From the NCBI RefSeq assembly GCF_019977735.1, contig NZ_AP025018.1, positions 4,154,001-4,218,000 on the forward strand: a stretch of DNA of 64,000 nucleotides. Reading direction: 5' to 3'. Source of the stretch: Calothrix sp. PCC 7716. GTDB lineage: Bacteria; Cyanobacteriota; Cyanobacteriia; Cyanobacteriales; Nostocaceae. The notes below the pieces were generated by a model that ran no database searches, was not told the DNA's origin, and was given only the letters and a program-made list of their open reading frames with translations. Position numbers and translations under genes: made by a program. Below, in pieces: positions 1 through 64,000 of the stretch (within the stretch, counting starts at the first letter, position 1; every line of letters begins with the position of its first letter).

Positions 1-1737
1 ACGGTTAAATGCTTCTACTACCAAAACGAAAGGCGCCTTACCAATTTTCGCTATCATTTCTTCATCGACAACGTTTAAAGTCGGTTTGTTGATTAACCCT
101 ACATCTATTCCTTCTTGCTTGAGACGTTCGACTGCATCTAGCGCGCGGTATAAACCATCGCCAAAGCTAACAATATAACCTTGTGTTCCTTCGCGTACTA
201 CTTCATCTTTGCCAGGAACGAATTTATAGCTATCTCCAAACAACTCTTTACCATCGTTACCTTTAATTGTCGGTACTTTAGAACGAGTTGAGAAAATAAA
301 TCGTAGTCCTGGGTCAGAGAATATTGCTTCTACACAAGCTGTCATTTGATTTGTGTCTGCTGGGAAGTATAGATGTGTTGGATGACCATCATCTAAACCG
401 TTGTCGGCAAACATATTATTTAAACCAAAGTGACAGGTGTTATCTGCCATGTCATCGATACCCGCATGAGAAAAGTGACATAACACGTTCGAGTAGTTCA
501 AGCGTGCCATCGTAATTTCGGATATACACATTTCTAAAAATGCCGAGAATGTGGCGAAAATTCCTTGCTTCCCAGCTTCCATACCAAACCCAGCAGCAGC
601 AGAGAAGTTACCACGCTCCATAATACCCGATGGTACAAACACTTCTGGATATGCATCGTGAATTTTCTTCAAACCACATGACCCTTCTAAGTCACTATCG
701 ATAACTTTGACTTTTTCCTTACGTTCTGCTTCGCTCATTCGACTTAATATATTTACCACCGCTTCACCAAAGACGTTACGGTTGGCGCCCCATTTATCGC
801 TAGAACCAAGGAATGTATAAGTTTGTTTGGGTTTTTCGATATTTTTGAGGTATTCGACTGCTGCACTGTGTCCGCGCGCTTCTAAATATTTAATTGCTAA
901 ATCTACAGATATTACATCATGACCATGAGTTGAGCCTTCTAAACCTTCAATTGCCGGACACATTGGACGCTTGTTAATAACAGCTATTGGTCCTGGGGTA
1001 TTTACAGCTTCACACAAACGACGATATAAATCATCTATATCTTCCCCGTCTCCCTCTAATACTTTTATACTATGACCTTCTAGAGTTTTAGCAACACTAA
1101 AGCCAGGTAGATATTTAGATGGGTGTCCAGCTATTGTTACATCATTATCATCAATGATTAATTTTACATTCAAATGTAAAGCGGCAGCTAAACGCGCGGC
1201 TTCAGCATCGTTACCTTCTTGTTGTGAACCATCAGAACCTAGACAGAAAACTGTTTTACCAGGATTTGCCATTGCTACACCGTTGACGTAAGGCCACATG
1301 TGACCCAGGCGCCCAGAACTAAATTTTACACCAGGAGTTAAGCCAAGTTCCGGGTGTCCTGGTAATTTAGAATGTGCTTCGCGATAACGTAGAAGTTGCT
1401 GTTCTGGTAAATCACCATGCAACGCTGACATTAAATATTGAGTACCAACTCTATGTCCAGCCTCATCAAAGAATATGGGCACAAACTGATCAGCGGCGCC
1501 ACGAAAAAATGCATCCAGAATCATTACCTCTGGGACTGTATCGTAGGGTCCACCCGTGTGACCACCCACTCCTCTAGCTGCTCCAGTGGCAGTGAAAAAC
1601 ACTATCGCATCGCGACAAAGTTGAATATTCGCTTTCAGTGCTTCTCTTTGTTCTGCTGTCAGTGTCGTATTTGCCGGATTGAGCGATAAATATTTGTAGG
1701 CGCCAAGATTTATTGGAAATTGAGTTGTTGTAGTCAT
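1..1737 (-). CDS. Transketolase-like thiamine diphosphate enzyme (partial, C-terminus off the left edge)
   Basis: I translated this open frame by hand from the ATG at 1737; it stays open to the window edge, giving about 579 residues. It has the transketolase order: an N-terminal diphosphate-binding half (GSDGSQQEGNDAEAA, then IIDDND, in place of the usual GDG...N motif), then a pyrimidine-binding half (DSDLEGSCG, GIMERGNFSAAAGFGMEAGK, FATFSAFLEM), then the start of the C-terminal domain (VGLINKPTLNVVDEE). The N-terminus (GGHTGGPYDTVPEVMILDAFF, DEAGHR) differs from the housekeeping transketolase, so I take it as a divergent paralogue. Substrates are not certain; transfer of two-carbon ketol units is the family reaction. 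It is divergent from a DeoR-type sugar regulator 123 bp away, which suggests sugar-phosphate control. Confidence 0.85.
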   Translation of the reverse strand, partial: MTTTTQFPINLGAYKYLSLNPANTTLTAEQREALKANIQLCRDAIVFFTATGAARGVGGHTGGPYDTVPEVMILDAFFRGAADQFVPIFFDEAGHRVGTQYLMSALHGDLPEQQLLRYREAHSKLPGHPELGLTPGVKFSSGRLGHMWPYVNGVAMANPGKTVFCLGSDGSQQEGNDAEAARLAAALHLNVKLIIDDNDVTIAGHPSKYLPGFSVAKTLEGHSIKVLEGDGEDIDDLYRRLCEAVNTPGPIAVINKRPMCPAIEGLEGSTHGHDVISVDLAIKYLEARGHSAAVEYLKNIEKPKQTYTFLGSSDKWGANRNVFGEAVVNILSRMSEAERKEKVKVIDSDLEGSCGLKKIHDAYPEVFVPSGIMERGNFSAAAGFGMEAGKQGIFATFSAFLEMCISEITMARLNYSNVLCHFSHAGIDDMADNTCHFGLNNMFADNGLDDGHPTHLYFPADTNQMTACVEAIFSDPGLRFIFSTRSKVPTIKGNDGKELFGDSYKFVPGKDEVVREGTQGYIVSFGDGLYRALDAVERLKQEGIDVGLINKPTLNVVDEEMIAKIGKAPFVLVVEAFNR

Positions 1738-1860
1738 AATTTGTCAACGGGTTGAATAACGCGAAAATGTTTGCTATGAACTTTTTGAGCTTATGCTATG
1801 AGTATAAACTCACAAACGTGCAATTTCAAGAAAAAAAACGCAACTTCCCGAAAATTAATT

Positions 1861-2640
1861 ATGTTGACTGCCGAACGAAGACAATTTATCTTGGAAATTC
1901 TTCGTCGTGACAAAAAGGTGCTTTCTTCCGAACTCAGTGCTGTTCTCAAAGTTTCAGAAGATACGATACGTCGCGATTTAAGAGAATTAGCTGAAACAGG
2001 TTTATTGCAGCGTGTGCATGGAGGCGCCTTATTAAGTTCTCCTGCAACAGCGAGTTATGCCGATAGAATACAGCAGGCGCCAGTAGAAAAGGAAGCAATA
2101 GCACGCGCGGCAGCTTCGTTAGTACGTCCAGGTCAAGTGATTATTTTAGATGGTGGTACAACAACGCTAACTGTAGCGCGGCATTTACCTATAGATTTAC
2201 AAGCCACAGTGATAACAAATAGTCCACCAATTGCTGTAGCTTTGGCAGAACATGCTCATATTGATGTTGTAATGTTGGGTGGACAGCTTTATAAAAAAGC
2301 TTTAGTCAATGTCGGTGCTGCGACTGTTGAAGGATTACAGATGATACGTGCGGATTTATGCATGTTAGGAGTATGTAGTTTGCATCCAGAAATTGGCATT
2401 AGCGTCACTAATTTGAATGAAGCTCATGTCAAACGGGCGATGATAAAGAGTGCTGCGGAAGTAGTCGGATTAGCAACTGCTGCAAAACTCGATACTGCGG
2501 CGCCTTATATAGTTGGGTCAATACATGCTTTAACTTATTTAGTCACGGCGCCTGTTGTACCATTAGAGGTGCTAACTTCCTATAAAGATTTAGGCTTAAC
2601 AATAATCCGTGAAGATTTGTCTTGTAGCACAGGCTTCTAG
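1861..2640 (+). CDS. DeoR/GlpR-family transcriptional regulator
   Basis: A 259-residue DeoR-family regulator. The N-terminus MLTAERRQFILEIL followed by a helix-turn-helix (VLKVSEDTIRRDLRELAETG) and RVHGGAL is the family hallmark. The C-terminal sensor domain has the sugar-phosphate isomerase-like fold motifs (ILDGGTTT, VITNSPPIA, VVMLGGQ, ADLCMLGVCSLH). A longer frame opens at 1798, but the added 21 residues are basic and unlike the family, so I choose the ATG at 1861. These proteins normally repress sugar genes and release DNA on binding a phosphorylated sugar. The divergent transketolase-like gene is the obvious target; autoregulation is an inference. The stop codon lies inside a hairpin repeat. 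Confidence 0.88.
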   Translation: MLTAERRQFILEILRRDKKVLSSELSAVLKVSEDTIRRDLRELAETGLLQRVHGGALLSSPATASYADRIQQAPVEKEAIARAAASLVRPGQVIILDGGTTTLTVARHLPIDLQATVITNSPPIAVALAEHAHIDVVMLGGQLYKKALVNVGAATVEGLQMIRADLCMLGVCSLHPEIGISVTNLNEAHVKRAMIKSAAEVVGLATAAKLDTAAPYIVGSIHALTYLVTAPVVPLEVLTSYKDLGLTIIREDLSCSTGF

Positions 2641-2647
2641 CCTGTGC
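2627..2647 (+). terminator. Hairpin repeat overlapping the DeoR stop codon
   Basis: GCACAGGCT (2627-2635), a 3-nt loop and AGCCTGTGC (2639-2647) form a perfect 9-bp stem. It spans the stop codon of the regulator. No T-tract follows directly, so it may be a weak terminator or one copy of a dispersed palindrome. Confidence 0.5.
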
Positions 2648-2695
2648 AGTGACATAATATTTTTACCACAGAGCCACGCTCGTACACAGAGTAAA

Positions 2696-2956
2696 ATGAT
2701 GAATAGCTTTGATAATAAAAGAAAATGGATTGGTTATGAGGTAATAACAGAAAGAGGTGTACTGTTGGGATGGGTAAAACAAATCAAACTTGATGCGGTT
2801 AGAACCAATCAGGCTACCATTACCATAGCCATTATTCCTATTTATTACCTTCCAGATATACTATCCAGCACCTATGAATTTTCTGGGTCTACGAAACCAC
2901 TACGACCAAGCCCAAAACCCAACGATAGCGCGGAAAACGAAATATCACTAGATTAA
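2696..2956 (+). pseudogene. Truncated PRC-barrel protein (remnant or very short gene)
   Basis: The frame encodes about 86 residues from the ATG at 2696. The segment KWIGYEVITERGVLLGWVKQI resembles the start of a cyanobacterial PRC-barrel domain, where IGYEVITERG followed by LGKV is typical; PRC-barrel proteins bind reaction-centre or RNA partners. The following part (IIPIYYLPDILSSTYEF) still matches the usual IPDQLLSTYEL stretch, but the rest of the barrel is replaced by a Ser/Pro/Asn-rich tail. The family is usually much longer, often with two barrels, so I read this as decayed. The upstream 2660-2695 stretch is a dispersed repeat that recurs near 62011. Confidence 0.45.
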
Positions 2957-3829: not shown

Positions 3830-3836
3830 TTTTAGC

Positions 3837-4523
3837 ATGAATAAGTTAACTATCTTATGGGATGGGCGCCTATATTGCCCGTCCATTGCTGCATTCATAA
3901 ATGCCTCTGTCCAAATAGCGACTTTTATTGTCGTAATTTTTATAATTGGAATCCCTGCAATTACGGATGTAAATAAGTTTATCGACTTGGCAACTCACAA
4001 CCCTTTCCCCATACTTATCGAAGATTTATTAAAGTTTCTTTCTGCTGCACTCACCTGCGTGTTGATTTGGGTTTTTTATCAAAATTTGCATTCCTCTCGT
4101 CCAAAATTAATGTTTCTGGCTAATGTCTTTGGCTTTCTCTCTGTTCTATGTTTAGTCACAAATGCAACATTGAGTTTTTATACGATATTACAAGCTGCTT
4201 CTTATACTCAAGCGACAGATGAACTAGGTAATCAACTCAATACTAGTATTGGTGTACTTGGAGTAGGCGCCATTTTTTTTAATGGTGTATGGTATTTACT
4301 GGTGAGTTGGTCTGCACTCAAAAATGAGAAATTACCCAAATTGTTCAGTTATCTTGGATTAGGAATAGGAATTGTTAGTTTGATACCACTGTTAGGAATA
4401 TTTGTTTTAGTTCTGAGCGTGATATGGTCAATTTGGTTGGGTCTATTACTTTTGAAACAAAAGCCTACCGCTATACCAAAACGTTTAAATGCTCGGTTCG
4501 TCTTTGGGTTGCTAGTTCTCTGA
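3837..4523 (+). CDS. Multi-pass membrane protein, DUF4386-like
   Basis: About 228 residues from the ATG at 3837; an upstream in-frame start at 3816 overlaps the previous gene and is less likely. I see six hydrophobic segments: near IATFIVVIFIIGIPAI, LLKFLSAALTCVLIWVF, LMFLANVFGFLSVLCLV, VLGVGAIFFNGVWYLLV, YLGLGIGIVSLIPLL and LGIFVLVLSVIWSIWLG. The layout resembles DUF4386-type inner membrane proteins of unknown function. No catalytic motif is visible. Confidence 0.6.
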   Translation: MNKLTILWDGRLYCPSIAAFINASVQIATFIVVIFIIGIPAITDVNKFIDLATHNPFPILIEDLLKFLSAALTCVLIWVFYQNLHSSRPKLMFLANVFGFLSVLCLVTNATLSFYTILQAASYTQATDELGNQLNTSIGVLGVGAIFFNGVWYLLVSWSALKNEKLPKLFSYLGLGIGIVSLIPLLGIFVLVLSVIWSIWLGLLLLKQKPTAIPKRLNARFVFGLLVL

Positions 4524-4877
4524 TATTTTTTCCAGCCTTATTATAATTTTGTCAGTTATACAAAACCGTGCAGCTAATAGCTAGGAGCGTTGATATACAT
4601 TAGGGCGCCGTCTTTATATAGTGCGGTCGTATCTTAGCAGAATTTGCCCCTAGGAGTGCATAAACCCCTGACACCGGACATAAGTAAGAGTACAAGCTTA
4701 AAACTTATACGAAACAATCATGAAATCGAACTTTAATTTTCCCGTGCGTAGGGACATGAATGTTCATGTCCGCTCGTAAATTTTGAATTTTCGAGGTCAG
4801 TTTGCCAGCCCCGATAAAAACTCCCAAGACCTTAGCTCTTCTCAATACGGAAATTTTGAATAATGTGGAGATAAATT
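4524..4877. other. Intergenic region with a palindromic repeat
   Basis: 354 bp without a convincing gene. It holds an inverted repeat at 4752-4771 (GGACATGAA, TG, TTCATGTCC) within a GTAGGGACATGAATG context that looks like a dispersed cyanobacterial palindrome, and one GGCGCC near 4605. The promoter and ribosome site (GGAG at 4867) of the next gene must lie at the right end. Confidence 0.6.
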
Positions 4878-5411
4878 ATGAAGTTTTTTATGAGTTTTGG
4901 TCTTTGCTTGATTTCTAGTTTTGCAATGCTATGCGATGTTGCGAAGGCAGAACAAATATTATTGTTGAACCTCCAATACAAATCTGATAAAACCACGACT
5001 AAAGAGATTCATTTTTATGGCAATGACATCGATCCCAATTCTGTATCTATTGACGATCGTTTTTCGTTAACGATCGACGGAAAATCAATTCAGCTACCGA
5101 AGCAACTTTATAGACGACTCGATCAGTTAAGACGTAGTTTTAGCTATGACAGCCTTTCAGGAAGTATTCAGCAACCAAAAGAAGAAGAATCAGCTTGTGC
5201 ATTAGGAGGATCGGCTGAGGGAATTATCCTCAAAGCCCGCTATCTCACTTATAATAACCATAGGATTGTGAAGAATGAAATAAAACCTGTATTTGGTCTA
5301 GCTCAAAACTGTCTTTTCACAGATATTTATAAACCAGTTAATTCAAATGCCCAAGAGGATGCTCGAGCGGTATTTGAAATTTTGAATACCCTCAGTTTGC
5401 TAGAAGACTAA
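4878..5411 (+). CDS. Exported protein of unknown function
   Basis: A 177-residue protein with a clear signal peptide: MKFFMSFGLCLISSFAMLC followed by a likely cleavage after DVAKA. A GGAG ribosome site precedes the ATG. The mature part is polar and mixed alpha/beta, with two cysteines (SACALGG and QNCLF) that could form a disulfide in the periplasm. I do not recognise the family. It stands alone between two repeat-rich gaps. Confidence 0.6.
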   Translation: MKFFMSFGLCLISSFAMLCDVAKAEQILLLNLQYKSDKTTTKEIHFYGNDIDPNSVSIDDRFSLTIDGKSIQLPKQLYRRLDQLRRSFSYDSLSGSIQQPKEEESACALGGSAEGIILKARYLTYNNHRIVKNEIKPVFGLAQNCLFTDIYKPVNSNAQEDARAVFEILNTLSLLED

Positions 5412-6109
5412 TTGGGCTAGATATAGCGACAATTACTTAGGCAGTGTAGGATGTTTGGTAACTTATAATACTCGAATATCAAGGGTTATATTGAGGTTGT
5501 CGCGTTCTGTGACAACAAAACGGCGCCGTGAATAAGTGTTCGCCCTGTAGATGTGCGGAATTGTACGTTAGAGGAAGGTAATAATCTCTCAAACTCGGAG
5601 AAAGTTTCCCTTAATCGCGGCATGGAACAGAAGTATATTAGCTTACATCTTGCACATGCCCGCTTATTGAGAATAAGAGAGGTTGTAATGCTTATTCTTA
5701 CGTAGGGTGGGCACTGCTAGCCCTGTCAAGGTGTACCAATACAGTACTAGATAAAAGCCTTATTCTTACGTTGTACCCCCAACTCTGGAATATAAAATTG
5801 AGCGCAAATATTATTTTTTGCTTTCAAATTTTAATCAGTGAAAGGCTAAAACCCTTATAAATGGTTAGTACCCATGCTCACCTTGACAGGGCTAGGTGGG
5901 CACTGCCCACCTTACTCAGATTACTACGACACAAAAATAGCATGAATTTTTTTCGGCTAATTTCCCACAAAGTCAACACTTTAGTTTTAACCCTATGCGG
6001 GTAAGAACGAAGCCAATAATCTACTAAATACTCAGGTGCAAGATGTAAGGGACTTCCATATTAAAAAAATCTCCACAACATGAAGAATTTATTTTTTGGA
6101 AGTCCCTAA
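5412..6109. repeat. Repeat-rich gap with a 179-bp inverted-repeat unit
   Basis: No gene is visible. CTAGCCCTGTCAAGGTG at 5717-5733 is perfectly inverted at 5879-5895, bounding a 179-bp unit; both ends are joined to copies of the GTGGGCACTGC repeat, and at 5894-5910 this forms a full GGTGGGCA/TGCCCACC hairpin. A short sequence CTTATTCTTACG occurs at both 5691 and 5760. A second inverted repeat, AGGGACTTCC (about 6049) with GGAAGTCCCT (about 6098), abuts the hydrolase remnant. GGAAGTCCCTAAG recurs near 38561. Confidence 0.65.
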
Positions 6110-6337
6110 GATACGGGAGATATTAGGGAAAAGAATGGTTTGGGCGTGTATCCTTTAATAAATAACGATGGTAGAGTTATAGGTCATGATGGTCAAAATC
6201 CTGGTTATGTATCTTTGATGGCATATTTACCCGATGCTAAAATTGCAGCAGTTGCTTTAGTTAACGAACGTAATGACTATTTAGCTATCGACCCAAATAA
6301 AATTTTCCAAGGTCGGGTCGTTCCTCCCAAGAAGTGA
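6110..6337 (+). pseudogene. C-terminal remnant of a serine beta-lactamase-like hydrolase
   Basis: Only the last 75 or so residues are present. GLGVYPLINNDGRVIGHDGQ, NPGYVSLMAYLPDAKIA and AVALVNERND match the third active-site region (H-x-G-G-like box, here GHDGQ) and final strands of class C beta-lactamase or D-alanyl-D-alanine carboxypeptidase-like enzymes. The SxxK and YxN motifs are missing, and the frame begins directly at the edge of an inverted repeat. It corresponds to the end of the intact RTX hydrolase at 8987, so it is probably a decayed paralogue. The insertion sequence starts 21 bp after its stop and did not cause the truncation. Confidence 0.7.
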
Positions 6338-6358
6338 GAAACAATATTCTGTTAAGCA

Positions 6359-7820
6359 CAATACCTTCGCCAAAATAAAGAGGGCCTTCTGTAGTAGAGT
6401 TATGTTTACTAGACTACAACTCAAACATATACAGAAAGCCCATGCCAAATATATTAGCACTATTGGAATGCCTACAGCGACATACGACAAGAACAACTTT
6501 GAGACGGTGGGGTCGAATCATACCAGCAATACTAGCTATGAGTGGAAGAATAACTATGCTGGGCATATCACGGTGGTGTGGAAAAGGGGGGAGTTATCGA
6601 ACAATACAACGTTTTTTTGCTTCATCGCTACCTTGGGCAGTGTTGTTTTGGGTATTTTTTAAAGAACATATATTTAGAAGCAAAGAAACATATATACTAG
6701 CTGGTGATGAAGTAGTAATTAGTAAAGCAGGAGAAAAAAGCTACGGAATCGATAGATTTTTCTCATCCTTATATCAAAAACCAATACTCGGTTTATCTTT
6801 TTTTACTTTATCGCTTGTAAGTGTGGAGCAAAGAAGAGCATTTCCTATTAGCATAGAGCAAGTTATAAAGCCTAAAGAAGATAAAGCAAAAAAAATAATA
6901 GAAAAGCCTAAAGCGACTAAAGATGAGTCGAATAAAGAAGCTGTAAAAAAGAAAGGTGGGCGCCCAAAGGGTAGTAAGACAAGGGATAAGAAAGAAGTAA
7001 ATTTAACTCCCGACTTTTTACGTATTCGTCGTCTAGTTCAGGATTTACTTAAAAAAATCAGTAATTTTTTACCATTAACCTACTTAGTACTTGATGGTTA
7101 TTTTGGAAATAATAAAGCTGTAGTAATGGCTCGGCAGCTAGGTTTACACCTAATTTGTAAAATGCGCCATGACTCAGCATTATACATACCTTACGAAAAT
7201 CCAGACCCTACCCGTAAGTCTCGTCGTAAGTACGGGGAGAAAATAAACTATTCATTTATACCAGAGCGTTTTTTAAAAAAATCTAACATTGAAGATGACA
7301 TTCGTACAGATATTTACCAAGCACAACTTCTACACAAGGAGTATTGTCAAGCATTAAATGTCGTCATCATAGTACGAACAGATATTAAAACTTGTCATAG
7401 AACTCATGCTGTGTTATTTTCCACTGACTTAAATTTAAGCTATGACAAGTTAATTGATTATTACAGTCTCAGATTTCAAATTGAGTTCAATTACCGAGAT
7501 GCTAAACAATTTTGGGGGCTAGAAGATTTTATGAATGTTGGAAAAACAGCAGTTACAAACGCTGCTAATCTTGCATTTTTTATGGTTAGTGTTTCACAAG
7601 TTTTGCTTGTTCATTTTCGGAAATTTAATCCGGATTTTAGTGTTACGGACTTGAAGGCACTGTTCCGAGGTTATAAATATGTTGAGGAAACTATAAAACT
7701 CCTTCCCGAAAAACCAGACCCAGTTTTAATGGCAAATATTTTCCACAGAGTTACCAATTTAGGGCGCATACACCCTGCTAGTACTTGCTCCACCAGTTCT
7801 TAAATTTGGCGAAGGTATTG
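6359..7820 (+). mobile_element. Complete IS4-superfamily insertion sequence
   Basis: The element is 1462 bp. Perfect 16-bp terminal inverted repeats CAATACCTTCGCCAAA (6359-6374) and its complement (7805-7820) bound one transposase gene. The 5-bp sequence AAGCA lies directly outside both ends (6354-6358 and 7821-7825), as expected for a target duplication. Intact ends and an open transposase point to recent insertion. The subgroup within IS4 cannot be fixed by eye; the 5-bp duplication would fit an ISH3- or IS4-like group. Confidence 0.9.
6442..7803 (+). CDS. DDE transposase, IS4 superfamily
   Basis: A 453-residue transposase inside the insertion sequence. The first catalytic Asp is probably in LAGDEVVISKAG, the second in LVLDGYFGN, and the Glu lies in YSLRFQIEFNYRDAK, which fits the IS4 signature Y-x2-R-x3-E-x6-K exactly. 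A Lys-rich linker between the first and second Asp (roughly residues 140-190: PKEDKAKK, KKKGGRPKGS) is an insertion typical of some subgroups. The N-terminus (LRRWGRIIPAIL, SYRTIQRFF) is the DNA-binding part. The frame is uninterrupted, so the protein may be active. Confidence 0.9.
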   Translation: MPNILALLECLQRHTTRTTLRRWGRIIPAILAMSGRITMLGISRWCGKGGSYRTIQRFFASSLPWAVLFWVFFKEHIFRSKETYILAGDEVVISKAGEKSYGIDRFFSSLYQKPILGLSFFTLSLVSVEQRRAFPISIEQVIKPKEDKAKKIIEKPKATKDESNKEAVKKKGGRPKGSKTRDKKEVNLTPDFLRIRRLVQDLLKKISNFLPLTYLVLDGYFGNNKAVVMARQLGLHLICKMRHDSALYIPYENPDPTRKSRRKYGEKINYSFIPERFLKKSNIEDDIRTDIYQAQLLHKEYCQALNVVIIVRTDIKTCHRTHAVLFSTDLNLSYDKLIDYYSLRFQIEFNYRDAKQFWGLEDFMNVGKTAVTNAANLAFFMVSVSQVLLVHFRKFNPDFSVTDLKALFRGYKYVEETIKLLPEKPDPVLMANIFHRVTNLGRIHPASTCSTSS

Positions 7821-8986: not shown

Positions 8987-10684
8987 ATGTCTAATCAAAC
9001 TGAAATAAATACGTCTGCAAATTTTTTAGACCCGAACCAATTTCAGCAAACACTGACGGGAAGTCGAAACAATGATTACCTCTATGGTAATAATAAGAAC
9101 GACTACATCAATGGCGGACTGGGTAGTGATTATCTGTGGGGAAGGTCTGGTAATGATTTACTTATCGGTGGCGCCGGGGATGATTACTTAGTTGGTGGCG
9201 TCAATAATGACATATTAAAAGGCAGTTCAGGAAACGATGTTCTTTGGGGTGATAAAGGTAACGACCGTCTTGAAGGTGGTATCGGTAAAGATACACTTTT
9301 CGGAGGTTCAGGTAATGACATTGCTATTGACGCAGATGGAGGTGACCGCATTACAGGAGGTAGGGGGAACGATGAATTTTCTATTGGTAATGGGCAACTA
9401 GGAAGCACTGTAATAACAGATTTTAAAATTGGTATTGACCAAGTGAAATTCCAAGAATTAGGTATAACCTACGATAAGCTCAGTATTAAAGATATTCAAC
9501 AAGGAACTGCTATTAGTTTCCAAGGTCGAGAAATCGTTACTTTACTTGGTATCAAAACCAAAGATATCAAGCCCGACCAATTTATCTTTGGCAAAGCTGA
9601 ATTAGCTGGCGAATTAAAGTCCGCAATTGACCAAGTAATTAATACTACAGGAGTTCCTGGCGCCAGTGTTGCAGTAACAACAACTGATGGCTCAACATGG
9701 TTAGGTGTTGGAGGTTTATCTAATATTGCAGAAGTAACCCCAATGCAAACGGATGACCGCTTTTACATTGGCAGTGTTACTAAACCAATGGTATCAACGG
9801 TAGTATTGCAGTTATTGCAAGAAGGAACTTTGAATTTAGAAGATACCGTAAGTAAGTGGTTGCCAGACCTTGCTCGGCTAATTCCCAATAGCGATAGAAT
9901 TACCGTTCGCCAATTATTGAATCACACAAGTGGTGTTAAAGATTACCTTGCTGCTGGTTTGACACAGGATTTGCTCAACAATCCCGCTTTGGGATTTCAA
10001 CCCTGGACAGTCGAAGAAATACTTACTACATATGTAGCAGGTAAACCAGCAGACTTTAACCCTGGCGAACAATTTAACTATAGCAATACAGGGTATCGAC
10101 TGCTGGGAGAAATTATCGAAACAGCTACTAATACAACCCTCTCCCAGCAGCTACAAGAGCGTATATTTAAGCCTTTGGGGATGACTAACACATTCTATGA
10201 TAGAAGCGAGCGCATCAAGGGCGATATCACCCACGGCTATGTGGATTTTAATAATGATGGCAAAATAGATTTTACCAATGACCTCGACACCAGAAATGCT
10301 AATTTACTTGATATTGCAGGTTCTGCTGGTGCTGTAATTTCCACATCGGCAGATGTTAGTCGGTTTATTCAAGGTTTAACAGGGGGTGAATTACTGACTC
10401 CCCAAGCTTTCCAACAAATGCGAAATGATAACTATCCAGAAATTCCTTATGGGAGAGGACTTTTATCCACCACCCTATCTGACGGAACAGAAGTTGTTGG
10501 ACATAGCGGTGGAACTCCTGGTTGGAATACCTGGATGCTTTCTTATCCTCAAGTTGGCGCCACAGCAGTTGTCTTAACGAATGGTGTACTAGAGGTCAAC
10601 CCGAATGTGCTTTTGACCAAAAAAGTTGTTGAGACCTTATCCCAACGATATCCTTTTGACAATGACCCCAGAGGAAATGCCTAA
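8987..10684 (+). CDS. RTX calcium-binding repeat / serine beta-lactamase-like hydrolase fusion
   Basis: A 565-residue fusion. Residues 25-135 hold about ten GGxGxDxLx nonapeptides (GGLGSDYLW, GGAGDDYLV, GGSGNDIAI), which bind calcium outside the cell. Residues 136-202 (TVITDFKIGIDQVKF, IKPDQFIFG) are the domain that usually follows RTX repeats in cyanobacteria. Residues 205-555 are a class C beta-lactamase/D-alanyl-D-alanine peptidase fold with S263-V-T-K266, Y365-S-N367 and H506-S-G-G509 all present, so it should be an active serine hydrolase or esterase. No Sec signal is seen; RTX proteins are usually exported by type I secretion, but here the repeats are N-terminal, which is unusual. Substrate unknown. 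Confidence 0.88.
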   Translation: MSNQTEINTSANFLDPNQFQQTLTGSRNNDYLYGNNKNDYINGGLGSDYLWGRSGNDLLIGGAGDDYLVGGVNNDILKGSSGNDVLWGDKGNDRLEGGIGKDTLFGGSGNDIAIDADGGDRITGGRGNDEFSIGNGQLGSTVITDFKIGIDQVKFQELGITYDKLSIKDIQQGTAISFQGREIVTLLGIKTKDIKPDQFIFGKAELAGELKSAIDQVINTTGVPGASVAVTTTDGSTWLGVGGLSNIAEVTPMQTDDRFYIGSVTKPMVSTVVLQLLQEGTLNLEDTVSKWLPDLARLIPNSDRITVRQLLNHTSGVKDYLAAGLTQDLLNNPALGFQPWTVEEILTTYVAGKPADFNPGEQFNYSNTGYRLLGEIIETATNTTLSQQLQERIFKPLGMTNTFYDRSERIKGDITHGYVDFNNDGKIDFTNDLDTRNANLLDIAGSAGAVISTSADVSRFIQGLTGGELLTPQAFQQMRNDNYPEIPYGRGLLSTTLSDGTEVVGHSGGTPGWNTWMLSYPQVGATAVVLTNGVLEVNPNVLLTKKVVETLSQRYPFDNDPRGNA

Positions 10685-12691: not shown

Positions 12692-13345
12692 ATGCTCCTT
12701 AGACCAAATCAACGTACTAAGCTAGACGACAGTAACGATAAATTGTTCTATTCTGAACCACGCTTTGTCACCCATGTAGACGAAGGCTTTATTCAACAGC
12801 TTACAGATTTGTATCGCCAACTGTTAAAACCGAATACGCGCATTCTTGACATGATGAGTAGTTGGGTTTCGCATCTACCAGAAGAAATAGAATTTTCTCA
12901 TGTCGAGGGACATGGACTTAATGAAAAAGAACTCGCACGAAACCCCAGGTTGAACCACTATTTCGTTCAAAACCTGAATGAAAACCCAAAGTTACCGTTG
13001 CTTGACCAAGATTTTGACGCCGTTATCAACTGTGTCTCTGTACAATACATACAGTATCCAGAAGCAGTATTTTCAGAAATCCACAGAATTTTAAAACCTG
13101 GTGGCGTAGCAATATTTAGCTTTTCTAACCGCATGTTCTTCCAAAAAGCCATTGAAGCTTGGCGTGAAAATTCCGAGAAAGGCCGAGTTGAATTAGTCAA
13201 AAGCTACTTTAATAGTGTACCTGGCTTTACTTCTCCCGAAGTTATCGCCCGCCAATCCCAAGTTCCAAATTTACTACAATGGTTAGGCGCCGGTGGTGGT
13301 GACCCCTTTTACGCTGTAGTCGCTTATAAGAATAGTGCTGAGTAG
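12692..13345 (+). CDS. SAM-dependent methyltransferase, type 11
   Basis: A 217-residue methyltransferase-like protein. ILDMMSSWVSHLP is in the motif I position (unusual, since the GxGxG loop is replaced by DMMSSW), VEGHGLNEKEL motif II, LPLLDQDFDAVINCVSVQYI motif IV and EIHRILKPGGVAIFSFSN the post-IV signature of Methyltransf_11. The altered glycine loop is a known feature of a cyanobacterial group of these proteins. The target is unknown. Transcription may end in the heptamer repeat array just downstream. Confidence 0.8.
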   Translation: MLLRPNQRTKLDDSNDKLFYSEPRFVTHVDEGFIQQLTDLYRQLLKPNTRILDMMSSWVSHLPEEIEFSHVEGHGLNEKELARNPRLNHYFVQNLNENPKLPLLDQDFDAVINCVSVQYIQYPEAVFSEIHRILKPGGVAIFSFSNRMFFQKAIEAWRENSEKGRVELVKSYFNSVPGFTSPEVIARQSQVPNLLQWLGAGGGDPFYAVVAYKNSAE

Positions 13346-17982: not shown

Positions 17983-19737
17983 CTAAGATTTATCAGTTCC
18001 TAGTTGCAAAGCATAGAGATTTGCATAAACTCCATTTAAAGCAATAAGTTCAGTATGGGTTCCCTGTTCCAGAATTTGCCCTTGTTGAATTACCATTACT
18101 TTATCGGCTTGCGTTACAGTACTAAGGCGATGAGCAATAACAAAGCTTGTACGATTTTGGAGAATTTTGGCTATTGCGTCTTGTACTAACTCTTCGGTGC
18201 GAGTATCAATGCTGCTAGTTGCTTCATCTAAAATTAAAATTCTTGGGTTGACCAAAACTGCCCGTGCAATACTAACGAGTTGTCTTTGTCCTTGGCTTAG
18301 GGTTACACCACGGGCGCCAACCACAGTATCATAACCTTGTGGCAACGTCATAATAAATTCGTGAACGTTAGCTACTTTAGCAGCAGTTTCAATTTCTGTA
18401 GTTGTTGCATCTGGGCGCCCAAAAGCAATATTCTCGGCAATGCTACCACTGAACAATATCATGTCCTGAAGCACAATCCCAATTTGAGAACGTAAAGAAG
18501 CTTGTTTAACAGAGCGAACATCTATACCATCGACTTTGACGGCACCGTTAGTAACGTCGTAAAAGCGTAATATCAAGTTAATAATTGTACTCTTTCCTGC
18601 CCCAGTGGCGCCGACAAGGGCTATCATTTGTCCTGGTGCAGTGCAAAAAGAGACATTTTTCAGCACCGTTTGATTAGCTTTATAGCCAAACGAAACATTT
18701 TCAAAACTAACTCCACCTTGAATTGGTGGCATTTCTCTAGCATCAGGAGCATCGAATAACTGTGACGGTTCGTCTAAAAGCAAGAAAATTCGCTCAAGTC
18801 CAGCAATTGCCGATTGCGCCTGCGTGTAAAATTGGCTTAATATTTGAATAGGTTGGAAAAACTGCTGAACGTAAAGAAGAAATGCCGTTACAGTTCCCAC
18901 CGTCATTTTACCTGCCACCGCAAGATAACCACCATATGCTAATACGCCTCCAAGCGAAAGCGTATTTAAAACATCAATAGTAGGTAAAAATGCTGCCGTT
19001 ATTGCCGTTGCTTGAATATTCGCATCTCGATTTATCGCATTCAAACGGCGAAAATCATTTATATTACGCTCAATTCGATTAAAAGCTTGTGCTTCTCTAA
19101 CGCTGCTTAAATCTTCTTCTAATCTACTAGATAATTCGCCTATACTAGTACGAGTCAAACGGAATTTAGCACGCGCCCATCCTCCAAACAAAGTAGTAAT
19201 AATAATTACTAATGGAACTAATATATTACTTAGTAGTCCTAATTGTAAATTTACAGCGAGCATAGCTAAAGCAATACCGACCAAGCTAAACAAACTGCTA
19301 ACAATTTGAGAAATAGCGAGTCCAAATACTTGGTTTACAGTACTAACATCGTTAAGCAAACGACTCATTAAGTCACCGGCTGAACTTGTATCAAAGAACG
19401 AAAGAGGTAAAGCTTGTATTTTTGTAAAAATATCTTGACGAAGTTGCGCGAGTACATTCTGAGTAATCCAGTTGGTGCGAAGAATATGTCCGCGAAACGC
19501 TGAAAATCCAATTAAATACACAGCTAGTACAACAACTAGCATTTGCATCAATCCAGAAAAATTACCCTTGGCAATCAGATTATCTATCGACCAACCAATC
19601 AAAAAAGGCGCCACACCTTGCGAACAGGCGCCGATAGAAACGAAAAAAACCGCCACAAGAATTTGACGACGGTAGGGAATAAGATATTGTGCAAAGCGTT
19701 GCAGTGTCGGGGGTTGAGAGTTGATATTTGCCGTCAT
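17983..19737 (-). CDS. ABC exporter half-transporter (permease plus ATPase), subunit with LSQGQ signature
   Basis: About 584 residues from the ATG at 19737. Residues 20-320 hold six membrane helices with the EEDLSSVREAQAF coupling region; the ATPase domain has Walker A GATGAGKS (376-383), Walker B LILDE (Glu 505) and an intact H-loop His (AHRLST, His 536). The ABC signature is LSQGQ (480-484) instead of LSGGQ. In heterodimeric exporters of the TM287/288 and BmrCD type, this altered signature occurs in the subunit that completes the non-hydrolysing site. The matching partner type is encoded at 39613. Substrate unknown; drugs, lipids or peptides are possible. Confidence 0.9.
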   Translation of the reverse strand: MTANINSQPPTLQRFAQYLIPYRRQILVAVFFVSIGACSQGVAPFLIGWSIDNLIAKGNFSGLMQMLVVVLAVYLIGFSAFRGHILRTNWITQNVLAQLRQDIFTKIQALPLSFFDTSSAGDLMSRLLNDVSTVNQVFGLAISQIVSSLFSLVGIALAMLAVNLQLGLLSNILVPLVIIITTLFGGWARAKFRLTRTSIGELSSRLEEDLSSVREAQAFNRIERNINDFRRLNAINRDANIQATAITAAFLPTIDVLNTLSLGGVLAYGGYLAVAGKMTVGTVTAFLLYVQQFFQPIQILSQFYTQAQSAIAGLERIFLLLDEPSQLFDAPDAREMPPIQGGVSFENVSFGYKANQTVLKNVSFCTAPGQMIALVGATGAGKSTIINLILRFYDVTNGAVKVDGIDVRSVKQASLRSQIGIVLQDMILFSGSIAENIAFGRPDATTTEIETAAKVANVHEFIMTLPQGYDTVVGARGVTLSQGQRQLVSIARAVLVNPRILILDEATSSIDTRTEELVQDAIAKILQNRTSFVIAHRLSTVTQADKVMVIQQGQILEQGTHTELIALNGVYANLYALQLGTDKS

Positions 19738-19741
19738 TAAT

Positions 19742-20005
19742 TTATTTAAATCTATAATATATTGCCAATAGAGTGACAATTGCACAGCTAATAAAACTAA
19801 TTATATTACCATACATCAAAATCATGTCGTTGTAGTAATAACCATATAAAATACCGTTAAATTGAATAATATTAAAGCCAGCAAAAGTTATTAACGAAAT
19901 ATTTCTAGAGCTTTTGGTTTGATAGACTCTAATTGCTTGTGGAACAAATAAACTAGCATTAAATATAAAACCTAAGCCAAATAAAAAGGTAACTATTTCT
20001 TTCAT
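19742..20005 (-). CDS. SemiSWEET-like PQ-loop membrane protein
   Basis: About 87 residues from an ATG at 20005 (an upstream ATG at 20050 is also possible). Three hydrophobic segments: IVTFLFGLGFIFNASLFVPQ, ISLITFAGFNIIQFNGILYGY and MYGNIISFISCAIVTLLAIY. VPQAIRVYQTKSSRNIS is the PQ-loop motif of SemiSWEET sugar transporters, which work as dimers. The length is normal. The stop lies 4 bp before the ABC exporter start on the same strand, so the two genes are probably one operon. Confidence 0.8.
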   Translation of the reverse strand: MKEIVTFLFGLGFIFNASLFVPQAIRVYQTKSSRNISLITFAGFNIIQFNGILYGYYYNDMILMYGNIISFISCAIVTLLAIYYRFK

Positions 20006-35660: not shown

Positions 35661-38462
35661 ATGGCAACACAGCAAAACCGTACTATTTTGATTATTAGTG
35701 ATTGTGCTGAAGACCGCGTGGCTTATCGGCACTGTCTTCTCGAAGAATCAAAGTATAATTATCAAATTTTAGAAGCAGAATCAACAGTGGGGTTGACTTT
35801 GTGTTGTGAGGCTAAACCAGATTGCGTTTTGCTTGATTTTATCGAGTCAAAGACAGGTGGATTTGAATTTATATCAAATTTACAGGCTCAGATGGGTAAA
35901 TCATATTTGCCACCATTAATAGGAATAACAGAATATCGAGACGAAATGGTGGGCGCCTGTAATTGTTCAGTTCGCCATTTAGTTAGGGAGTACTTAGTAA
36001 AAACTAGTTCACCTGATACCTTACGCATAGCAGTACGCAGTGCAATTGAGATTAACGAGCTACGACACAAATTACAAGTAAGTGAAGCACGTTTTCGCAG
36101 TTCTGAACAATTTGAACTGGCAGCAGAGGCAGTTAACTGCTTGATATTTGATTTCGACTTACAAACCAACACTGTAGAAAGAACGCGCGGTTTAATGGAA
36201 TTAGTGGGTTATACATTATCCGAGGCTGAACCAACTGCACAATGGTGGCATCAACTTATACACCCTAATGATATAAACTACATCAATGGTCAACAGTTGA
36301 CGACTATTTTAGAATCAAAGCACCGCTATACTGGGGAGTATCGCGTTCGCCATAAGCAAGGTCATTACCTGTGGGTACAAGAACAAGGAATTATTTTACG
36401 AGATGCGAATGGTCAAGCAGTGAGAATAGTTGGTAGCACAGTTGATATTACTCGACGTAAACAAGCAGAAGAAGCATTGCAACGTTCTGAGGAGAAGTTA
36501 GCTTTTGTCCTTAATAATGTAGATGCTTCAATTAGCAGATTTTGGGTATTTCCAAATCAAGATTGGAAGTCTGATTATTATTCTCCTGGGTGTGAGAAAA
36601 TTTTTGGTTACACAAGTGAAGAATTATTGCAGGATAAAAAACTTTGGTTGTCAAGAGTGGCGCCATCCGATTTAGAAAATGTGATTTTACCTAAGTTTGA
36701 AAATATTTTCGCCGAACAAACAGTAAGTTATGAGTATAAATTTTACCATAAAGATGGTAGCTTGCGATGGATTAATGATACTTTAACTTCTCAGTTCGAT
36801 AAAACTGAAAATGCATGGATTGTTACTATTATAGGTGTGGATATTACCGAGCGGAAACAAGTGTTAGAGGCACTGTGGGAGAGTACAGAACGCTATCGTT
36901 ATGTAGTGGAAACTGTTCCAAACATAGTGTGGAGAGCTTGTTCAGATGGTAATAGCGACTTTGTTAATCATCGTTGGGTTGAATATACAGGATTCGGCGT
37001 TGAGCAAGCGCTACAGATGGGGTGGTTACAATTTATTCATCCAGATGATGTATTGCGAGTTCAAGCTTTTTGGCAATCAACAACGAGTAATACAAATTCA
37101 TTATACGAAATACAATACCGCTTAAAATATATTGACGGCACTTACCGTTGGAATTTAGTTAGAGGCTACCCAATTATAGATGAGCAGGGTAACGTTATTA
37201 AATGGTTTGGTAGCTGCACAGATATTCATGACCAAAAAGAATTAGAAGCGCAAAGGAACCAACTTTTAGCAGAAGCACAAGCAGCACGTGAAGAAGCAGA
37301 ACTTGCTAACCGCACAAAAGACGAATTTCTTGCTATTGTTTCTCATGAGTTACGAAGTCCTCTCAATGCAATTTTAGGTTGGACAAAGTTATTAAAAACT
37401 CGTAACTTCGATAGCGCGAATACTGCACGCGCGTTGGAAGTTATTGAACGTAACACAGTTGCACAGGTACAGTTAATAGAAGATTTGCTAGATATTTCGC
37501 GGATGATTCGGGGTAATTTACGTTTAACATTACAACCTGTTAATCTTGCTACGACTATTGAAACTACAGTTAATAATCTACGTCTATCGGCAGATGCGAA
37601 AAAAATAGACTTGCAAATAAAAAATTATGCAACGAAGTGTTTAGTTTTAGGTGATATGAATCGGTTGCAGCAGATAGTTAGTAATTTACTTACCAATGCG
37701 ATTAAATTTACACCTTCTTTAGGACGGGTTGAGATTTGTCTTGAAATTGTTAATTGTAAAGACGTGACATGTCACGTCTCTACAGCAGCGCAAATAACAG
37801 TTACCGACACAGGTAAAGGTATTAGCGCAGATTTTTTACCTTATATATTTGAACGCTTCCGTCAAGTAGAAAACACCACAACACGTGCCAAAGATGGGTT
37901 AGGTTTAGGGCTTGCGATTGTTCGTCACCTTGTAGAATTACATAATGGCGCCATTACAGCTTCTAGTTTAGGGAAAGGACAGGGAGCGACGTTTACTGTA
38001 ACCCTACCACTATTGGAAGAGGAAGCAACGAGACAAGAGGAACAAACAGGACAAGAGGAAATATCTCCTACTCTTTTATCCAACAAAAAAATCTTAGTTG
38101 TAGATGATGAACCCGATAACTGTACTTATTTAAGTTGCGCTTTAGAAGAATATGGAGCAATAGTAACAACAGCATCCTGTGCAAAAGAAGCCTTAGCAAT
38201 TTTTGAAGAATTTCAACCTGATATTATTATCAGTGATATCGGGATGCCAGAAGAAGACGGTCACACACTAATACGAAAAATACGTCAACTAACAACACAC
38301 AACTGTAACATTCCTGCTATTGCACTAACAGCTTATATAAAACAAGAAGATAGAGAACGCTCTCGAAATGCTGGTTTTCAACTTCACATGACAAAACCTG
38401 TCGAACCAACTGAGTTAATTAAAGCTATTTCCAACCTAATTAAGGAACTTCCAAAAATTTAA
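35661..38462 (+). CDS. Hybrid histidine kinase with N- and C-terminal receivers and three PAS domains
   Basis: 933 residues from the ATG at 35661, preferred over the TTG at 35649 since GAGG lies in front. Order: receiver-like domain (1-125, DCVLLDF), three PAS/PAC units (about 150-275, 280-400 and 405-530, ending VDITRRK, VDITERK, CTDIHDQK), HisKA (IVSHELRSPLNAI, near 560), ATPase (NLLTNAIKF, TDTGKGIS, GLGLGLAIV; 660-790) and a full receiver (VVDDEPDN, ISDIGMPEEDG; 805-930). There is no membrane segment, so it is cytoplasmic. Codons near residue 698-707 (CKDVTCHVST) are encoded by a dispersed palindrome inserted in frame between strand and N-box loop of the ATPase. Input signal unknown. Confidence 0.93.
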   Translation: MATQQNRTILIISDCAEDRVAYRHCLLEESKYNYQILEAESTVGLTLCCEAKPDCVLLDFIESKTGGFEFISNLQAQMGKSYLPPLIGITEYRDEMVGACNCSVRHLVREYLVKTSSPDTLRIAVRSAIEINELRHKLQVSEARFRSSEQFELAAEAVNCLIFDFDLQTNTVERTRGLMELVGYTLSEAEPTAQWWHQLIHPNDINYINGQQLTTILESKHRYTGEYRVRHKQGHYLWVQEQGIILRDANGQAVRIVGSTVDITRRKQAEEALQRSEEKLAFVLNNVDASISRFWVFPNQDWKSDYYSPGCEKIFGYTSEELLQDKKLWLSRVAPSDLENVILPKFENIFAEQTVSYEYKFYHKDGSLRWINDTLTSQFDKTENAWIVTIIGVDITERKQVLEALWESTERYRYVVETVPNIVWRACSDGNSDFVNHRWVEYTGFGVEQALQMGWLQFIHPDDVLRVQAFWQSTTSNTNSLYEIQYRLKYIDGTYRWNLVRGYPIIDEQGNVIKWFGSCTDIHDQKELEAQRNQLLAEAQAAREEAELANRTKDEFLAIVSHELRSPLNAILGWTKLLKTRNFDSANTARALEVIERNTVAQVQLIEDLLDISRMIRGNLRLTLQPVNLATTIETTVNNLRLSADAKKIDLQIKNYATKCLVLGDMNRLQQIVSNLLTNAIKFTPSLGRVEICLEIVNCKDVTCHVSTAAQITVTDTGKGISADFLPYIFERFRQVENTTTRAKDGLGLGLAIVRHLVELHNGAITASSLGKGQGATFTVTLPLLEEEATRQEEQTGQEEISPTLLSNKKILVVDDEPDNCTYLSCALEEYGAIVTTASCAKEALAIFEEFQPDIIISDIGMPEEDGHTLIRKIRQLTTHNCNIPAIALTAYIKQEDRERSRNAGFQLHMTKPVEPTELIKAISNLIKELPKI
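37755..37783. repeat. Dispersed palindrome inside the hybrid kinase gene
   Basis: GTAAAGACGTGACA and TGTCACGTCTCTAC are complementary halves with one mismatch. The unit belongs to the GTAGAGACG...CGTCTCTAC family seen at 31718-31745, near 20063 and near 63938. It keeps the reading frame and adds about ten residues to the ATPase domain. Confidence 0.85.
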
Positions 38463-38785
38463 TTCTCCATAAAAGTGGAATGGGCATCCTTGCCCTGTCA
38501 AACTGTAGGTGTAAGCGAAGGATGCCCACCCCACAAGAAATTGTTGAGTATTTTTTTATTTGGAAGTCCCTAAGTAAAATGCATCCGCTTGTAAAGCTTG
38601 TTTTTGCGTAGTAGGGTGGGCACTGCCAGCCCAGTCCCAATACTGCAAGGGATAGCTATTTTCTTGGAACTAATCCCCCCTGACCCCCCTTAATAAGGGG
38701 GGAAAATAGCGGCTTTTAGCCCCCCGCGATTTCGGGGGGGTTGGGGGATTTTATTCTTCACCGAGTAGTATTGAACCCAGTCCTT
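38463..38785. repeat. Repeat-filled gap behind the hybrid kinase
   Basis: Three families in 323 bp: a degenerate GGGCATCCTTGCCC unit with an inverted partner (about 38480 and 38520), the GGAAGTCCCTAAG sequence shared with 6098 followed by a partial GGTGGGCACTGCC unit, and at 38670-38750 a C-run/G-run array (CCCCCCTGACCCCCCTTAAT and its complement) that also appears at 41760-41880. No gene is visible. Confidence 0.75.
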
Positions 38786-61144: not shown

Positions 61145-61360
61145 TCACTCTAATTTCCAGCGAGTGCGAGGATAAACGCAGGGTGGGAAATATATATAAT
61201 GACATGTTTCGTTATGTTAAGCATTGAAACCCTTAGACAAATTTTGTGGTTTTACATGATGCTTTGTTTGCTACACCAGGCAAAAAGCGCTGTTCACAGT
61301 TTAAAAATTGCAAACGGCGCCTTTATTACAGATAATTTTTGCTTGGTTCAAAAATAAAAG

Positions 61361-62455: not shown

Positions 62456-62733
62456 AACTTTATATCGAAACACAAAAATTGCCGATATTTGCAGCAATCC
62501 TTAACAAGCTTATGATACCCATGAGTATAGTGCTTGTAACATTTGTGCTTACACTTTTATGCTAAAATATGCCCATTTTTGCCCGTAATACTCTATATAA
62601 AGCAGTTGAACACGTTCGATAGGCGCCAATGAACGAGTCAAGATATTTTTGTTACAAGCCGTACATTTACTTAGATAATAGTGGGATGTTATTGTTATAA
62701 AGGATACGAAAACTACTCAGCCTACAAGAGTAA

Positions 62734-63357
62734 ATGAAAGTTCATCGACTTCTTTTGATATTTATCCTTTTTTGTTTAGCTTTGATATGCGTTATCGCTT
62801 TTGCTAACTTTCAAACACCGAATAATAAACGCTCTACATTGTGCCACAGTACTAAACTTCTGACTCAAATTGAAGTTAAAAACTACGATGCTAGTGGGGT
62901 TAAGTTACGTGATGGCACATTTATTAGAAAAGTTTCCCTCGATAACAATAGAAAACTAAAAGTCATTATTTTTCCTAGAGCTATTTCTCCCCAAACTTGG
63001 CTAAAGATACCTCAATCATCGATTCAATATATCGGTAAAGGTGGCGATGACAGTTGGGAAGAATGGCTGCGTCCCGACTATTTTTATTTACTCCAAGTTC
63101 CTCCAAAAGCAACAGGTTTAGCTTTTGGAAGACTATGTTATCGCAATGGAGATGTTGAGGTTGAGGCTATTAAAAAATTGAAAAAAATTTATAAAGGAAA
63201 GATAAATATCAATGACAAAATAAATCTTTCAATTGAAGAGCCTATACTAACTATTAATCCATATAGCGTTATCGTCAATACTGGAAGTAATCGTCGAGAT
63301 GCCCTAGGTAGTGAAACAGAAGTATATTTTACAACACAAGACCTGAAGCTTGATTGA
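62734..63357 (+). CDS. Exported or membrane-anchored protein of unknown function
   Basis: A 207-residue protein with a hydrophobic start (LLLIFILFCLALICVIAFANF), a signal or anchor. The mature part is beta-rich (NYDASGVKLRDGTFIRKVSL, KLKVIIFPRAISPQTWLKI) with two cysteines. I do not recognise it. The region before it has one GGCGCC and no clear hairpin. Confidence 0.55.
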   Translation: MKVHRLLLIFILFCLALICVIAFANFQTPNNKRSTLCHSTKLLTQIEVKNYDASGVKLRDGTFIRKVSLDNNRKLKVIIFPRAISPQTWLKIPQSSIQYIGKGGDDSWEEWLRPDYFYLLQVPPKATGLAFGRLCYRNGDVEVEAIKKLKKIYKGKININDKINLSIEEPILTINPYSVIVNTGSNRRDALGSETEVYFTTQDLKLD

Positions 63358-63381
63358 ATATGAGTTTATTTAGACAAAGTG

Positions 63382-63819
63382 TTAAGCATTTAAAGACTTT
63401 GATGAGGAAAGCGACATCATTATAATGTCCGAGCGCTGGCGCCAACCTTGCTTCGACCAAAACGAAGATGCTGCATCGTTTTCGCTAAGTATAAATAAAT
63501 GACATTTATCAATACCTTGCTTTTGTAGCTGTGATAAGCATGATTGAACAAGTTTGGTGGCGATACCTTGCCTACGGTAATCTGGTAAAACAGCCAAATG
63601 GTTGAGATAACCTCGGCGCCCGTCATGACCACATAATACGGCGCCGACAATTTTACCATTGTGGCAAGCAATATAACTTAAACCTGGGTTACGGTGTAGA
63701 TAACGTTCGATATTTTCTCTAGAGTCAGCATCACGTAAACGTACACCTTGACTATTTTCCCAAAGAGTTATTACTTCTTCATAATCCGTAATTTTTAACT
63801 CTATTATTTCTACTTCCAT
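63382..63819 (-). CDS. GNAT acetyltransferase (YpeA-like)
   Basis: A 145-residue GNAT protein. IVGAVLCGHDGRRGYLNHLAVLPDYRRQGIATKLV contains the acetyl-CoA loop R-R-Q-G-I-A, and WSKQGWRQRSDIIMM is the C-terminal part. The pattern is that of the YpeA subgroup, with unknown substrate. It is convergent with the preceding gene, 24 bp apart. Confidence 0.88.
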   Translation of the reverse strand: MEVEIIELKITDYEEVITLWENSQGVRLRDADSRENIERYLHRNPGLSYIACHNGKIVGAVLCGHDGRRGYLNHLAVLPDYRRQGIATKLVQSCLSQLQKQGIDKCHLFILSENDAASSFWSKQGWRQRSDIIMMSLSSSKSLNA

Positions 63820-63929
63820 ATTTTATAACTTTAGCCATCCGAATAGTTGCCCTACTGTTAATTTCTTTACTGCTGATGTAACCATAGATATTATTTATAC
63901 GTATGTAATTCAGTATATTGATTATTCGT

Positions 63930-63995
63930 ATAGCTGTGGAGACGTGATATATTCCCTGCGGGACACTGCGTGAACACGTCTCTACATTTAATGAT
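63930..63995. repeat. GTAGAGACG-type palindrome, right edge
   Basis: GTGGAGACGTGATATATTCC at about 63936 and GAACACGTCTCTACATTT at about 63972 are inverted copies around a GC-rich loop (CCCTGCGGGACACTG). Same family as 31718-31745 and 37755-37783. Confidence 0.75.
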
Positions 63996-64000
63996 GATAA

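Follow-up and report, generated by a model that had tools for sequence, protein, structure and literature searches.

GGCGCC takes the place of the HIP1 palindrome in Calothrix sp. PCC 7716 and its genus

Introduction

Why should a cyanobacterial genome that has almost none of the usual HIP1 octamer, GCGATCGC, carry the hexamer GGCGCC about every 600 bp? The question is raised by a 64,000-nucleotide stretch of Calothrix sp. PCC 7716 (contig NZ_AP025018.1 of assembly GCF_019977735.1, positions 4,154,001 to 4,218,000 of the forward strand), hereafter the window. A preliminary description of the window, made from its letters, proposed that GGCGCC stands in for HIP1 as the highly iterated palindrome (HIP), probably in connection with methylation or repair. 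Selection on HIP1 was reportedly studied by Xu, Lawrence and Durand in 2018, and to our knowledge the role of HIP1 is still open.

A swap of HIP1 for GGCGCC is not new in kind, having already been published for a relative. In the sections of Elhai (2015; PMC4390886) on which we draw throughout, GGCGCC is described as the alternate HIP in Calothrix strains PCC 7103 and D253, where HIP1 is nearly gone (14 per Mb in PCC 7103), and two methyltransferases of PCC 7103 are assigned to GRCGYC. The same sections name rCCGGy in Oscillatoria PCC 10802 and GCsGC in Cyanothece PCC 7822 as other alternates, restrict alternate HIPs to genomes with little or almost no HIP1, and hold that exceptional HIPs arise sporadically and do not persist. 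Besides Elhai's, we found no report of a GGCGCC switch among titles and abstract openings, in a search that mostly did not extend to subscription journals. What the present analysis adds is the persistence of the swap across a genus, a C>T footprint within the site, retention of the site under codon control, an imbalance of losses over gains, and an intact, conserved C5-methyltransferase.

GGCGCC is abundant and HIP1 nearly absent in the window and the genome

The window, at 38.2% GC, holds 107 copies of GGCGCC against 3.09 expected from base composition, a 34.7-fold excess, and no copy of GCGATCGC. The sites, which have no strand, start at positions 32, 784, 1308 and 1495 and run to 63438, 63615 and 63640, with a mean spacing of about 600 bp. 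An earlier count by eye of about 105 copies, an expectation of 3 to 5 and the apparent absence of the octamer were therefore sound; the excess, put at 20- to 30-fold, had been set too low. A Markov model of maximal (fourth) order, fitted to the window, gave an estimate of 60 copies. We rejected it as a null, because its sub-words GGCGC and GCGCC are themselves raised by GGCGCC, which leaves the estimate uninformative.

The source genome, designated G000, comprises 12,367,066 bases in 10 contigs and contains 20,380 copies of GGCGCC, compared with 7 of a reversed control word. GCGATCGC occurs 66 times, against 64 for its own reversed control. The case made from the window had been staked on these two figures, and both went its way: the genome-wide GGCGCC count is far above expectation, and HIP1 is not abundant elsewhere in the genome. 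The GGCGCC excess and the near-absence of HIP1 in G000 are thus confirmed.

Using mechanically called open reading frames (ORFs) in the 400 kb around the window, we found an observed-to-expected ratio (O/E) for GGCGCC of 34.0 in coding and 35.7 in intergenic DNA, in keeping with the claim that it occurs in both, and sites in all three codon phases (341, 116 and 157). Examples within the window are the site at 18313..18318, inside an ABC transporter gene (17983-19785, minus strand), and that at 13286..13291, inside an unannotated ORF of the mechanical list (12692-13345, plus strand). Two further claims did not hold. The sites had been described as evenly spread, but the gaps between them are random to slightly clustered, with coefficients of variation (CV) of 1.03, 1.03, 1.19 and 1.21 in four genomes compared with 1.00 in simulation; in three of the four, pairs less than 100 bp apart are slightly fewer than in simulation (84 against 107 in G000). 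Nor is the hexamer demonstrably rare within the insertion sequence, which we took to be the one carrying the DDE transposase gene (PF13546) at 6442..7803 on the plus strand, with a single GGCGCC at 6959: one copy in 1.46 kb compares with 2.4 expected (P = 0.31). Three 15-kb stretches of the smaller contigs of G000 gave a plasmid density of 1,200-1,667 GGCGCC per Mb. Since this is similar to the density elsewhere, the cause of the enrichment seems to act in trans on replicons.

The swap is shared across the genus

Our sample of the genus comprises seven genomes (G000, G353, G380, G388, G389, G390 and G391), of which three were counted whole and the other four from stretches of 179-400 kb. The whole-genome counts are 20,380 in G000, 14,889 in G353 and 15,449 in G380, or 1,545-1,711 per Mb. 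Across the seven, GGCGCC occurs about every 600 to 800 bp, and its O/E is 24.6-35.2 in the stretches of six, all but G380, which had no counted stretch. HIP1 numbers 31-163 copies per genome in all seven, compared with 4,296-6,611 in the three other members of the family tested. It lies within 3-fold of its control word in six of them and within 4-fold in G391; a residual excess over control is seen in G389 (163 to 58) and in G391 (147 to 37). At 14 HIP1 per Mb, G389 matches the figure given for PCC 7103 and may be that strain.

Outside the genus the hexamer is scarce in the family, with 0-530 copies, and at most 108 per Mb, in each of 68 sampled members. Elsewhere among the 388 genomes of the order, G116, G170, G008 and G194 reach several hundred GGCGCC per Mb or more and also keep HIP1 (1,980-15,293 copies). 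In G170 (51% GC), the one of these four analysed for O/E, GGCGCC stands at just 1.8 times expectation.

The swap is therefore shared by all seven genus genomes, and the counts in G000 and across the genus support the proposal that GGCGCC stands in for HIP1. Five of the genus genomes align to G000 at 82-93% identity, so the trait has persisted through the divergence of a genus, which argues against the view in Elhai (PMC4390886) that exceptional HIPs are sporadic and non-persistent. By abundance, GGCGCC falls in the range of about 1,000-2,000 per Mb that marks highly iterated palindromes, and HIP1 is low, as in the alternates. With PCC 7103 and D253, as described there, the genus has in common the hexamer itself, near-absent HIP1, a similar density and the same proposed methyltransferase group. 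Like rCCGGy and GCsGC, GGCGCC pairs low HIP1 with a high count of another methylatable GC palindrome, although the sequences and enzymes differ. HIP1 (GCGATCGC), with its GATC and CGATCG methyltransferases, resembles GGCGCC in being a GC-rich palindrome present about once per kb genome-wide, inside which methyltransferases are expected to act; GGCGCC differs from it in sequence and enzyme.

Other words are also unusual in the six genus genomes sampled for them: GATC (O/E 0.06-0.22) and GGCC (O/E 0.10-0.15) are strongly avoided, and CGCGCG is 5-12 times over expectation.

Sites are retained between relatives

The preliminary description had proposed a comparison of sites between close relatives, and we find them kept above background, including at synonymous positions. 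In five close pairs of genomes, the second genome has 0.79-0.90 of the first genome's GGCGCC sites unchanged, compared with a fraction of 0.58-0.73 for other all-GC hexamers; counted from the second genome, 0.87-0.92 are kept. Between G000 and G390 the corresponding fractions are 0.78 and 0.50. Thus 0.78-0.90 of the alignable sites of G000 are present in four relatives, a kind of site-by-site comparison that the sections of Elhai (PMC4390886) consulted here do not contain. The six bases of the site are more conserved than their flanks when G000 is compared with G388, G389, G353 and G390, four of the five genomes so aligned. Intergenic sites, which are few, are kept in 20 of 22, 11 of 14, 8 of 12 and 2 of 3 cases in four pairs.

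The strongest evidence of retention is a codon-controlled test on Gly-Ala pairs. An Ala codon GCC or GCT that follows GGC ends in C in 98.1% of cases, against 24.3% for such Ala codons elsewhere, and differs C/T between genomes in 2.7% (11 of 401 pairs with a C) against 25.2%. On the other side of the site, a Gly codon GGC or GGT that precedes GCC ends in C in 92.7% of cases against 19.0% elsewhere, and differs in 11.8% (52 of 442) against 31.1%. Fisher P values are 6e-27 (Ala) and 8e-14 (Gly), uncorrected for shared G000 sites, and the log-odds for C are about 5 at the Ala position and 4 at the Gly position.

GGTGCC and GGCACC have an O/E of 1.7-2.3 in G389, G353 and G391 compared with 1.05-1.33 in G000, and the rate of site loss per site-branch is likewise higher in G389 and G353. 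Lineages may not all keep the sites equally well.

Substitutions point to the inner cytosine

Among 237 pooled single differences within the site, 160 turn the inner cytosine, C3, into T or are the matching G4>A. The remainder comprise 54 at positions 1/6, 15 at positions 2/5 and 8 other changes of the inner cytosine; a further 94 non-identical cases with several differences lie outside this pool. In the Gly-Ala phase, where C3 and C6 are equally synonymous, C3 has 4.7-fold higher odds than C6 of showing a C/T difference. Conversely, G>A inside GGCGCC runs at 0.12 of background at position 2 and 0.38 at position 1. Such a footprint is what 5-methylation of C3, giving GG(5mC)GCC, would be expected to leave.

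A conserved C5-methyltransferase is the candidate partner

G000 has 16 matches to the C5-methyltransferase family PF00145, some of them pieces of one gene. When the C5 methyltransferases of the sampled loci, part of the genus's full set, were clustered, one group, L002, had a member in all seven genomes, 82-92% identical to the G000 copy. Its gene occupies one conserved chromosomal place in six of the seven, flanked on one side in each of them by a RuBisCO-like gene, as judged by eye; in G380 a contig end holds a piece of it, and another copy lies elsewhere. By eye, and with Pfam for the G000 neighbours alone, no restriction gene was recognised beside the enzyme in these six genomes. There it also has a PF00145 domain with intact PPCQ, ENV and QSRKR motifs and a dN/dS of 0.05-0.14. 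In six of the seven genomes, then, L002 has the features of a solitary C5 methyltransferase, with intact motifs and no recognised restriction gene at its side. Paralogues near 60% identity exist, one of which adjoins a 368-aa ORF with no Pfam family. A second C5 enzyme, L005, is shared with other genera (Brasilonema, Trichodesmium, Moorena and others), and we did not take it as a likely partner.

The nearest solved chains by sequence are M.HaeIII (residues 18-188), followed by the cytosine methyltransferase 3g7u and M.HhaI. The enzyme has the PF00145 catalytic motifs in common with M.HaeIII and M.HhaI, but the best matches end near residue 180-190, and because the target-recognition half is uncovered, specificity is not readable from them. 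The search that had been suggested for a solitary methyltransferase thus yielded a conserved candidate, whose recognition of GGCGCC is presumed from relatedness. Together with the footprint at one cytosine, it lends indirect support to the guessed link with methylation.

Losses exceed gains

Under strict polarisation, in which all other genomes agree, we counted 64 single-base losses in 733 site-branches (11 of 234 in G000, 13 of 230 in G388, 21 of 131 in G389 and 19 of 138 in G353) and no single-step gain in 102 opportunities. A relaxed rule with similar flanks gave 54 losses and 15 gains, or 31 to 10 with stricter flanks. For 19 control hexamers, six pairs of which are reverse complements, the same relaxed rule gave 128 losses and 300 gains. 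There were 40 events with the site in one genome only, and the flanks were read where that genome was among the four close ones; many of these sites sit in locally divergent stretches, and few clean point gains remain. Since losses exceed gains and the spacing is not even, the present phase looks like retention and not build-up: the accumulation of GGCGCC looks finished, and seems to have given way to retention with slow leakage.

An alternate HIP, presumably methylated and retained

We consider it probable that GGCGCC is the alternate HIP of this genus, presumed to be methylated at C3 by a solitary C5-methyltransferase and retained by weak purifying selection or a similar repair bias. On this account an ancestor of the genus would have lost HIP1, and the density of GGCGCC would have risen, on chromosome and plasmids alike, to about 1,200-1,700 per Mb. 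Each half-site would carry a 5-methyl group on its inner cytosine (GG-5mC-GCC), the putative enzyme being the solitary C5-methyltransferase of Elhai's GRCGYC-specific group that is fixed beside the RuBisCO-like gene. Retention would come from weak purifying selection acting on sites in their methylated form, or from a similarly strong repair bias linked to methylation. The build-up would be over, with sites now inherited, kept and slowly lost.

Several observations weigh against this account. The counts from genome comparisons are site-by-pair with G000 in most pairs, and hence not independent. Against G391, the most distant genome (78 sites), the six bases are not conserved above their flanks, and in the G353 pair the 8 of 12 intergenic sites kept show no excess over the 0.655 of other hexamers. 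GCG>GTG is also frequent outside the site (0.0217, compared with 0.0300 inside), so the footprint is strong when set against the remaining positions of the site and not against GCG in general; at position 2, G>C shows no reduction from background (0.0014 both, on 2 and 5 events). The imbalance of losses over gains could also reflect how few one-off sequences there are to gain from, namely the 102 opportunities. As for the enzyme, its putative GRCGYC specificity is carried over by relatedness from Elhai's assignment in PCC 7103, and its family is found in 103 of the 388 genomes of the order (E <= 1e-70). Among the 68 family members outside the genus, the 28 with an L002-type enzyme are poorer in GGCGCC than the others, with a median of 0.85 per Mb compared with 4.2 (P = 0.023). 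We therefore rejected the idea that GGCGCC rises wherever such an enzyme is present, the association being reversed, in line with a remark on GRCGYC in Elhai (PMC4390886). Widespread without the swap, and accompanied by fewer sites, the enzyme may be needed for GGCGCC accumulation but is not sufficient for it.

Alternatives differ in what they ask of the sites. In the ratchet of Elhai (PMC4390886), mismatch repair directed by G-5mC keeps new mutations that create methylated GC, and GGCGCC accumulates as a functionless by-product, with a ceiling at about one per kb. The palindrome and the methyltransferase group are the same, the density of 1,200-1,700 per Mb fits the range given there, and the footprint would place the methyl group on the cytosine that the model requires. 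We nevertheless think it unlikely as the explanation here. The bias stops at the ceiling, yet sites are kept well above background. Saturation, which we take to predict under-dispersed gaps, agrees with the mild shortage of pairs below 100 bp in three of four genomes but not with the CV of 1.03-1.21. GGCGTC, GACGCC and GACGTC, the intermediates, occur below expectation (O/E 0-0.47), and gains are few at present. No MutH-family gene was found in 13 genomes, though an unknown analogue is what Elhai postulates.

Restriction is a quite improbable cause. Enzymes would have purged GATC, GGCC and the other GRCGYC words, leaving GGCGCC as a protected remnant that rose. The avoidance of GATC and GGCC and the depletion of GGCGTC, GACGCC and GACGTC fit this, as do the several L002 paralogues, one of them beside the 368-aa ORF. 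Avoidance, however, lowers words; it does not raise one 25-35-fold over expectation or hold synonymous positions constant.

A very-short-patch repair of the Vsr type, reverting GGTGCC to GGCGCC and so driving the hexamer up, would account for the preponderance of C/T differences at the inner cytosine, and for 6 of the 15 gains under the relaxed rule the nearest relative has GGTGCC or GGCACC. By our arithmetic, a stationary two-state reading of the codon-controlled test would also need fast T>C reversion. We regard it as very improbable, given that Vsr (PF03852) was found in none of 13 genomes and that none of 18 GGTGCC or GGCACC opportunities reverted under strict polarisation. It is very improbable, too, that GGCGCC would serve as a signal for DNA uptake or recombination and owe its enrichment to biased uptake. 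Many apparent gains lie in locally divergent, recombined-looking stretches; the palindromic symmetry and the equal density on plasmid stretches are neutral.

A wider reading of the retained, presumably methylated alternate HIP is possible, and we offer it tentatively, with more doubt than confidence: that a different methylated palindrome took over the cellular role of HIP1, and that the roughly 20,000 sites per genome are individually under weak purifying selection, with a scaled strength of about 4-5. If so, what matters for the function of a HIP would be a regular supply of methylated GC palindromes, not the particular sequence of HIP1, and alternate HIPs could persist for a whole clade, contrary to the argument of 2015 that HIP1 alone does. 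A genus in which HIP1 has been replaced is a natural experiment, offering several species, orthologous sites and one conserved solitary methyltransferase. Comparison within it predicts which cytosine is methylated, and retention at synonymous positions makes selection and repair bias testable against each other.

Possible parallels and other features of the window

In another family, genome G059 contains 4,834 copies of the octamer CGGCGCCG (1,272 per Mb), 9,489 of GGCGCC and 74 of HIP1. Its four genus mates have 18-32 copies of CGGCGCCG, and G036, the one mate tested for HIP1, has 3,110 of the latter. G059 also has an L002-group methyltransferase at 54%, with no restriction gene recognised by eye among the flanking ORFs; none of the four mates is among the order-wide family matches listed. 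CGGCGCCG, found at this level in one of the five genomes of its genus, is a possible independent parallel, and is not among the alternates described in the sections of Elhai (2015; PMC4390886) drawn on here. In G136, which has 81 HIP1 copies in 6.6 Mb, GCCGGC has an O/E of 8.5 in 80 kb; this looks like the rCCGGy-type alternate given there for Oscillatoria PCC 10802.

Two features of the window stand apart from the palindrome. Positions 38438-38776 hold two units of about 135 bp, present in many copies at roughly 80-91% identity across the genome and the genus, and thus form a dispersed repeat. At 8987-10684, RTX calcium-binding repeats are followed by a beta-lactamase-family domain (PF00144) within one protein.

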